DNA of 45,515 bases from Phycisphaera mikurensis NBRC 102666 (GTDB lineage: Bacteria > Planctomycetota > Phycisphaerae > Phycisphaerales > SM1A02), in contig CAMDUT010000002.1 in assembly GCA_945877905.1 (NCBI GenBank), positions 1-45,515 of the forward strand, given 5' to 3'. Each line of letters begins with the position of its first letter. Position 1 is the stretch's first letter. Shown here piece by piece: positions 20,148 through 32,845 of this stretch. The notes beneath the pieces were generated by a model, which saw only the letters and a list, made by a program, of their open reading frames with translations, did not search any database and was not told where the DNA came from. A program made the position numbers and the translations under genes.

Positions 20148-20222
20148 GGCCCCATCGTCTAGCCCGGTTCAGGACACATCCCTCTCACGGATGGAACAGG
20201 GGTTCGAATCCCCTTGGGGTCA
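20148..20222 (+). tRNA. tRNA-Glu (anticodon CTC)
   Basis: Cloverleaf: acceptor GGCCCCA/TGGGGTC, anticodon stem-loop CATCC-CTCTCAC-GGATG, T-arm AGGGG-TTCGAAT-CCCCT; CCA not encoded. Confidence 0.95.
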
Positions 20223-20301
20223 CTCCCGCAACCGGCGCCCAGTCCAGGCGCCGGTTTCACAAGAAGCCCGCGCTTGCTGCGGGCCGCAGCAGCGCCGAAC
20301 C

Positions 20302-20376
20302 GGCCCCATCGTCTAGCCCGGTTTAGGACACCTCCCTTTCACGGAGGTAACGAGGGTTCGAATCCCTCTGGGGTCA
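20302..20376 (+). tRNA. tRNA-Glu (anticodon TTC)
   Basis: Cloverleaf: GGCCCCA/TGGGGTC, CCTCC-CTTTCAC-GGAGG, GAGGG-TTCGAAT-CCCTC; CCA not encoded. Confidence 0.95.
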
Positions 20377-31281: not shown

Positions 31282-31456
31282 GTCCTCACGGTCCTTTCAT
31301 CGATGCCGTAGTGGGGCGGAGTGGAGCGCCCCAAGGCATTGTGCGCGAGCTTTGTCCGATTGCCACAACAATCGGAGCCAACGTGAGTTACGACGGAAAT
31401 TGGCGCCAAGTTCGCGGACGACGACGGAAAAAGTGAAGAAATTGGGGGTCGGTGTG

Positions 31457-31489
31457 TTGCAAGGTGGGGCAATGTGGGTTACAGTGTGT
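31457..31489 (+). promoter_or_regulatory. mraZ promoter with MraZ-box repeats
   Basis: TTGCAA (31457-31462)-N17-TACAGT (31480-31485); TGGGG (31465), TGGGT (31475), TGTGT (31485) spaced exactly 10 nt. Confidence 0.7.
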
Positions 31490-31512
31490 CGCGGCTCCAC
31501 AAGGCGCAACAC

Positions 31513-31983
31513 GTGCTATTTCTCGGTGAGTACGAGCACACGCTGGACCAGAAGCAACGTCTGGCGATTCCGTCAGAGGTGCGCGAGGTGCTCGACGAGA
31601 AGGTGCACGGTGAGGCGTTCATTGCGGCGCCTGGGTCGAATGGCTCGCTCTGGCTCTGGCCCGAGAAGACCTTCGCCCAGCTGGCGAATGCTCTGGGCGG
31701 TTCGATCGTCGGTGAACCGTCCTTGCAGGAGTTCGAGCGGCTCGTGTTCTCGCAGGCGGCCCGTGTGCCCCTCGACAGCGCGGGCCGGGTCCGGATCCCG
31801 GACCGGTTGCTGCAGCGGTTCGGGCTCGGCGGAACCATCCTGATCCTCGGCGTGCGGGATCACCTGGAACTGACGAACCCCGAGGCCTGGAAGCGCGATC
31901 AGGAGCGCCTCCAGCCTGCCACGGAAGACATCTGGCGTCGTGCGCGGATGGCCATGGCCGCCGCCCAGCGCCAGGGGACCTGA
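31513..31983 (+). CDS. mraZ: MraZ transcriptional regulator
   Basis: FLGEYEHTLDQKQRLAIPSEVRE, ARVPLDSAGRVRIPDRLLQRFGLGGTILILGVRDHLEL; GTG start chosen from AAGG SD at 31501 (ORF opens at 31474 inside the promoter). Confidence 0.92.
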   Translation: MLFLGEYEHTLDQKQRLAIPSEVREVLDEKVHGEAFIAAPGSNGSLWLWPEKTFAQLANALGGSIVGEPSLQEFERLVFSQAARVPLDSAGRVRIPDRLLQRFGLGGTILILGVRDHLELTNPEAWKRDQERLQPATEDIWRRARMAMAAAQRQGT

Positions 31984-31989
31984 CCCACG

Positions 31990-32326
31990 CCGAGGCTGGC
32001 GACGCAAGTCCAGCCGACAAGTGAACTTCCGTGCGAGTGCGTCGGGAGGAACGCGCACTCGCACGAACGGACTGCCAGCGGCACGGATCGCCGGCCGGCA
32101 GCTCCGGGACGCGCGCTTCGGCGCCGTGCTCCCCGCGGCCAAGGATGGCCACGAACGGACCACGGCCCTCTCGGGTGCGTCGAATCGAACGGCCGAGCCA
32201 CGGATGGCCCGGCATGCATGGTGCGCCTCGCATCCGCCACGGTCGGCGGGGGCGGGGCACGGGTCGAGAGACCCGCAGTTTCCGTCGTTGCCCCCGCGTC
32301 GGTCGCCCGGCGCGGGGGCATTTCAT
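31990..32326 (+). ncRNA. Candidate CsrA-binding (CsrB/RsmZ-like) structured RNA in the mraZ-csrA intergenic region
   Basis: Serial hairpins: GGCTGG/CCAGCC; 12-bp stem 32030-32041/32054-32065 with loop TCGGGAGGAACG; CGGC[ACGGATC]GCCG; GGCC[AAGGAT]GGCC; GCC[ACGGAT]GGC; CCGCC[ACGGTC]GGCGG; CGGGTC[GAGA]GACCCG; terminator-like hairpin at the end. 5' boundary not determined. Confidence 0.5.
32289..32326 (+). terminator. Intrinsic terminator-like hairpin
   Basis: TGCCCCCGCG-TCGGTCGCCCGG-CGCGGGGGCA followed by TTTCATT. Confidence 0.65.
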
Positions 32327-32614
32327 TGGCCCGTGAAACGCCGTAACAGGATGTCACGCAGAGCCTTGTGTTTCGGACATTCACGCTGGCCAACCGCGCC
32401 GCGGGGCTCGTCCCAACGACGGGAATCCGCGCTTGATGTGTCCAAATTTCATCGGTTCCCGGATGGTCGCCCGATGTCCATCGCTACGCTTGAACAACGC
32501 GCGGTGGGTTCTCCGCCGCACTCCGCCGCAAGGCCACATGGATCGGTCGCGAGACCGGGTGGCTGGCGGGACGGCCCCCACGGGCCGGCGAGGCGCAGGC
32601 AGGAGGCTCGTGCG

Positions 32615-32845
32615 ATGCTGGTGATCACTCGCCGCGAGGGGGAAGAAGTCGTGATCGGCAACCCCTCGGCCCCGTTGGGCATCGTCCGCATTGCGGCGAT
32701 CAAGGGTGACCGCGTCCGCATCGCGTTCGAGTTCCCCCGCGAGGTCGATGTGCACCGTCGCGAGGTCGCCGACCAGATCCTCAAGGCCGACGAGGCGCCC
32801 CCGGGCATCGCGGGCCAGATCCGGCCCGCGGGCGAATCGGGCTGA
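32615..32845 (+). CDS. csrA: Carbon storage regulator CsrA
   Basis: MLVITRREGEEVVIGN...IVRIAAIKGDRVRIAFEFPREVDVHRREV; SD AGGAGG at 32601. Confidence 0.96.
   Translation: MLVITRREGEEVVIGNPSAPLGIVRIAAIKGDRVRIAFEFPREVDVHRREVADQILKADEAPPGIAGQIRPAGESG

Follow-up and report, generated by a model that had tools for sequence, protein, structure and literature searches.

The best-known RNAs that sequester CsrA are those of Gammaproteobacteria. CsrB and CsrC of Escherichia coli and RsmX, RsmY, and RsmZ of Pseudomonas are non-coding, carry serial hairpins with GGA or ANGGA in their loops, and end in an intrinsic terminator. The ANGGAN hexaloop is a high-affinity ligand of CsrA/RsmE (PMC7652899). In Bacillus subtilis and Campylobacter, CsrA is inhibited by a second route, antagonism by FliW. 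In a genomic survey, UvrY-type systems, which make Csr RNAs, were anticorrelated with fliW and almost never co-occurred with it; Planctomycetes were placed there among the groups likely to use FliW (PMC4682653). A review describes it as undetermined for any species whether the protein and RNA antagonists operate jointly (PMC7652899). A small RNA of the dcw cluster, UpsM of Rhodobacter sphaeroides, derives from the untranslated RNA of the mraZ/dcw message (PMC5089854), and MraZ is described as repressing its own expression via MraZ boxes (Eraso et al. 2014, as cited in PMC8475190). The initial annotation of the locus described here knew of no planctomycete CsrB-type RNA; the literature searched, with most subscription papers outside the search, likewise yielded neither a planctomycete CsrB nor a link between MraZ and a CsrA sponge.

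The window, meaning the whole 45.5-kb stretch that was analyzed, comes from contig 2 of a 2.47-Mb genome with 97.6% completeness, and the public records closest to it are planctomycete (Phycisphaerales) MAGs. It contains the sole mraZ copy of the genome (31513-31983, + strand; Pfam MraZ, 67.4 bits), and relatives also nearly always have one copy per genome. The GTG start at 31513 agrees with the alignment of relatives, and the longest ORF begins at 31474. Downstream on the same strand is csrA2 (32615-32845; Pfam CsrA, 52.1 bits), a divergent csrA paralogue that is kept across the order and has no linkage to FliW. The canonical csrA1 is on another contig, adjoining fliW. Two CsrA classes thus occur side by side in the order (G000:C7:6511-7135 and relatives): CsrA1 has SRQ or SRH, a long C-terminus, and a neighboring fliW, and CsrA2 has TRR, a 4-residue insertion, and, in the window's family, linkage to mraZ. 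Two tRNA genes were also identified by Rfam on the + strand at 20148-20376.

Between mraZ and csrA2, the 343 nt at 31984-32326 contain eight GGA trinucleotides and an array of hairpins, all on the + strand; every hairpin that the initial annotation had drawn 3' of mraZ is present where it was placed. H1, GGCTGG[..]CCAGCC (31994-32015), begins 10 nt past the mraZ stop, is 100% paired in 10 species, and has one compensatory pair. H2 (32030-32065) has a 12-bp stem with six pairs changed on both sides and a loop, TCGGGAGGAACG, with two GGA; the GGAGGA of this loop (32045-32050) is kept in 9 of 10 congeners. Three hairpins are candidate CsrA sites with a loop GGA found in 10 of 10 species: H3, CGGC[ACGGATC]GCCG (32079-32093), whose stem covaries in part; H5, GGCC[AAGGAT]GGCC (32137-32150), which is 100% paired with compensatory changes; and H6, GCCGAGCC[ACGGAT]GGCCCGGC (32192-32213), which is 100% paired with two pairs changed on both sides. 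In the MFE structure predicted from the window sequence alone, the H3 GGA (32085) is partly paired, and the open ANGGATC loop of H3 is backed by relatives, not by the MFE. A GCGC[TTCG]GCGC hairpin without GGA (32113-32124) is invariant in 10 species, and an extra ACGGA outside any loop (32155-32159) keeps its GGA in 9 of 10. H7, CCGCC[ACGGTC]GGCGG (32234-32249), is a conserved stem as had been described, but its loop reads GGT in all 10 species, which is not canonical and makes a CsrA site improbable. The terminator-like hairpin with TTTCATT at the end of the series was detected independently as a 14-bp intrinsic terminator (32289-32326, stem 32289-32320).

Coding capacity was ruled out for this region, as the initial annotation had surmised, because substitutions across the 343 nt lack codon-phase bias and indels break the frame. 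Fold energy is better than that of shuffled sequences for the array strand (z -4.15) and likewise for the reverse strand (z -5.62). Since both strands fold well, stability is uninformative on strand and was not used as evidence; the strand is indicated by the ANGGA motif. A 12-mer of the array, GCCANGGAYGGC, occurs 13 times in the genome compared with 12 times for its reversed control, and among the places listed only the array region has copies at most 60 nt apart. An unrelated second sponge may exist elsewhere in the genome.

Covariation of the stems and conservation of the loop GGA in relatives, which had been put forward as a check on the hairpins, were both found in an alignment of ten congeneric species. 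The structure scored comprised the hairpins of the initial annotation and one additional conserved hairpin. Across the alignment 88.4% of cells pair, and 19 pairs are changed on both sides, compared with 9.6±1.7 in shuffles (0 of 500 as high) and five to eight in control structures slid by 1–3 columns. Loop GGAs of the three ANGGAN hairpins (32085, 32143, and 32202) are identical in all ten congeners, so that variable stems hold unvarying loops.

The pattern extends beyond the genus. We scanned the 500 nt past the mraZ stop for ANGGA in loops of 5–7 nt closed by a stem of at least 4 bp, and the resulting counts are raw, ignoring kinship among genera. In 22 genera of the family, 69 such hairpins were found on the mRNA strand and one on the opposite strand, compared with 3.5±1.8 in shuffles (maximum 9) and 3–16 for ten control loop pentamers. 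These hairpins hold 69 of the 129 ANGGA occurrences in the family regions, compared with 1 of 37 on the opposite strand. Sixteen more genera of the order have 28 on the mRNA strand and 2 on the opposite strand (shuffles, 2.4±1.4), and the class Phycisphaerae yielded 102 versus 4 (57 loci, mostly from further families, restricted to gaps between mraZ and the next ORF). Background near csrA1 is 0.56 ANGGA hairpins per kb per strand. Two CsrA-bearing groups, f7 and f20, have few or no ANGGA hairpins after mraZ. Outside the class, 12 loci contain 5 hairpins versus 0 on the opposite strand, all in family f42 (L153, L164, L176, and L178), a suggestive indication that the array may be older than Phycisphaerae.

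These serial hairpins of CsrA type, conserved, covarying, and closed by a terminator, are in keeping with the CsrB/RsmZ-like RNA that had first been proposed here. Alternatively, the array could be a structured and conserved RNA, a 3' UTR or another kind, in which the GGA loops have a role apart from CsrA, such as binding another protein or protection from RNase. Elements without GGA are conserved too, among them the GCGC[TTCG]GCGC stem-loop and H7 with its GGT loop, as this explanation would have it; the preferred loop, however, matches the ANGGAN hexaloop of CsrA exactly, and csrA2 neighbors mraZ and the array in nearly the whole family. CsrA2 aligns to solved PDB structures of CsrA and keeps the RNA-contact residues TRR and VHR. 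The hairpins are also gone where CsrA is gone: in family f16 (G070, G077, and G270–G273), CsrA and FliW are each absent from all six genomes, and the six mraZ 3' regions contain a single ANGGA hairpin, located within an ORF, whereas the average over the class is 2.0 per locus. This joint loss of array, CsrA, and FliW is one evolutionary event, suggestive rather than proof, which leaves some room for a role unrelated to CsrA; we nevertheless consider such a role very unlikely. A small ORF lies between mraZ and rsmH in f16 and had no Pfam match where tested (L249). In another genome, G075, the sole CsrA match is weak, and an ORF begins 11 nt after mraZ. FliW was found in 73 of 120 sampled genomes of the class, many of which also have the array. 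One of these is G040, in which three ANGGA hairpins accompany FliW and a single CsrA.

The position of csrA2 bears on a further alternative, raised in the initial annotation, that the array is a cis-acting leader or attenuator of csrA2. Within the window's genus, this gene is indeed on the same strand, ~540–630 nt downstream (631 nt in the window), as such a leader would require. In most other genera of the family, however, csrA2 is convergent, and in other families it is elsewhere and unlinked, whereas the place and strand of the array relative to mraZ are constant whatever the position or orientation of csrA. Moreover, csrA2 has its own conserved leader, and both this leader and the terminator separate it from the array. 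A putative promoter-like sequence, CTACGCTTG (TACGCT, ~32484-32492, + strand), follows the array terminator, and the leader GCCACATGGATCGGTCGCGAGACCGGGTGGC (~32534-32564, + strand), distinct from the array RNA, contains ANGGAN in an internal loop with an AGGAGG Shine-Dalgarno further 3'. Both are kept in 8 congeners, and the ANGGAN of the leader is a possible CsrA autoregulatory site. Orientation and synteny contradict the idea that the array itself acts on csrA2 in cis, which we rejected as extremely improbable.

Linkage to mraZ raises the question of how the array is transcribed. Upstream of mraZ, repeats resembling MraZ boxes occur with a period of 10 (GTGTT 31454-31458, GTGGG 31464-31468, and GTGGG 31474-31478, + strand), with a -10-like TACAGT 3' of them (31480-31485); together they form a putative mraZ promoter at 31454-31485. 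TGGG-N6-TGGG was found upstream of mraZ at 46 of 117 loci, compared with 0–1 for other spacings and a shuffle expectation of 0.8. These period-10 repeats would place the transcription unit that they precede in the MraZ regulon. No sigma-70-like promoter was found in 31300-32700. In several genera the hairpins begin 5–30 nt after the mraZ stop (L019, L089, L090, and L104), leaving scant room for a separate promoter. A promoter within mraZ is possible; divergence at four-fold sites drops mildly at the mraZ 3' end, with no clear synonymous constraint. Terminator-like sites occur at 21 of 25 family loci (3.6 in shuffles), and in other families of the class a terminator is often not detectable after the array. 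The MraZ-box promoter, mraZ, the array, and the terminator therefore appear, from their arrangement, to be one unit. The suggestion that the array is made as an mraZ 3' UTR under MraZ control is plausible in view of the upstream MraZ boxes, the short distance from stop codon to hairpins, and the lack of another promoter in the stretch searched.

The array is probably a CsrB/RsmZ-like CsrA decoy that forms the 3' part of an MraZ-controlled mraZ transcript in FliW-carrying planctomycetes. Transcription would start at the MraZ-box promoter (~31454-31485), pass through mraZ, and end at 32320, where the terminator lies. The ANGGAN hairpins and the GGAGGA loop would bind CsrA dimers and, like CsrB/RsmZ, titrate CsrA2 and/or the FliW-linked CsrA1 away from mRNAs. 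The decoy would be released with the mraZ message or cut from it. Because MraZ is reported elsewhere to repress its own promoter, the level of the decoy would follow MraZ, and thus division and cell-wall status. Only 3–4 strong sites are present in this species, which leaves the titration capacity presumptive; this number is within the range of RsmX, RsmY, and RsmZ, and CsrB has 22 GGA.

The main rival to the decoy is local control, in which the array would be a cis CsrA target that sets the stability or translation of the mraZ message, with or without rsmH and the dcw cluster, and would not act as a sink. The gene that follows the array in much of the class is rsmH/mraW (Pfam PF01795; ORFs checked in L203, L220, and L245). 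Long ORFs checked in f5 (L126 and L148) are not rsmH, and for the f6 ORF that was checked (L108) Pfam gave no match. Beyond the window's family the array is mostly flanked by mraZ and a different gene, in many cases rsmH, and in many cases no terminator is detectable, an arrangement that fits local regulation too. In families f15 (L206, L209, L214, and L242) and f8 (L239), the start codon of the rsmH-sized ORF after mraZ is itself in an ANGGA hairpin loop, e.g., ggccggcgtcATGGATgatgccggcc, which suggests direct CsrA control of translation in these two families. The window's family, by contrast, has no rsmH at the mraZ locus, yet has the densest array, ended by a terminator; a series of several to eight sites is more than the repression of a single gene would call for, and the mraZ start codon in the window has no such site. 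The two modes are not mutually exclusive, and local control without a sink is a less likely account that we nonetheless take seriously. For the window's family a decoy is favored because rsmH is absent and a terminator follows the array.

A wider proposal, that a CsrA-decoy RNA on the mraZ message joins the dcw switch to post-transcriptional control throughout the class, alongside FliW, is tentative, and we place it slightly short of an even chance. If true, two antagonists would serve two CsrA paralogues, and this would be the first instance of FliW and an RNA at work in the same organism. A decoy at this locus would be a CsrA-directed RNA in a group thought to control CsrA by protein alone, and would connect MraZ to CsrA physically and directly. 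For a phylum known for its unusual division, it would also suggest a plausible function of mraZ outside dcw. The locus makes the question of FliW acting together with RNA directly testable.

Compared with known systems, the array resembles CsrB, CsrC, and the Rsm RNAs in its serial GGA-loop hairpins, its lack of coding sequence, its intrinsic terminator, and the presence of csrA in the genome; titration of CsrA is presumed. The Rfam models CsrB, CsrC, RsmX, RsmY, PrrB/RsmZ, and TwoAYGGAY gave no match at the gathering score in the window array and 12 relatives, and no Rfam family matched 31900-32700 up to E=5, so identity with a known Rfam RNA was rejected. By analogy, the array may work like CsrB/RsmZ while belonging outside those families. 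A GacA/UvrY box (TGTAAGN6CTTACA) is absent upstream of the array, and the sole match in the window, at another place, is at chance level. Unlike CsrB and the Rsm RNAs, the array is 3' of mraZ, has MraZ boxes upstream, and is probably co-transcribed with that gene instead of starting from a stand-alone promoter; it also has fewer sites than CsrB and occurs in a FliW-bearing planctomycete with a second CsrA next door. The FliW-CsrA antagonism of B. subtilis and Campylobacter has its counterpart here in the fliW that adjoins csrA1, and both routes would inhibit CsrA, with the RNA array present in addition. Like UpsM, the array would be made from untranslated RNA of an mraZ message; UpsM, however, is a 5' leader RNA that is bound by Hfq and has no reported link to CsrA, whereas the array follows mraZ and carries ANGGA hairpins.
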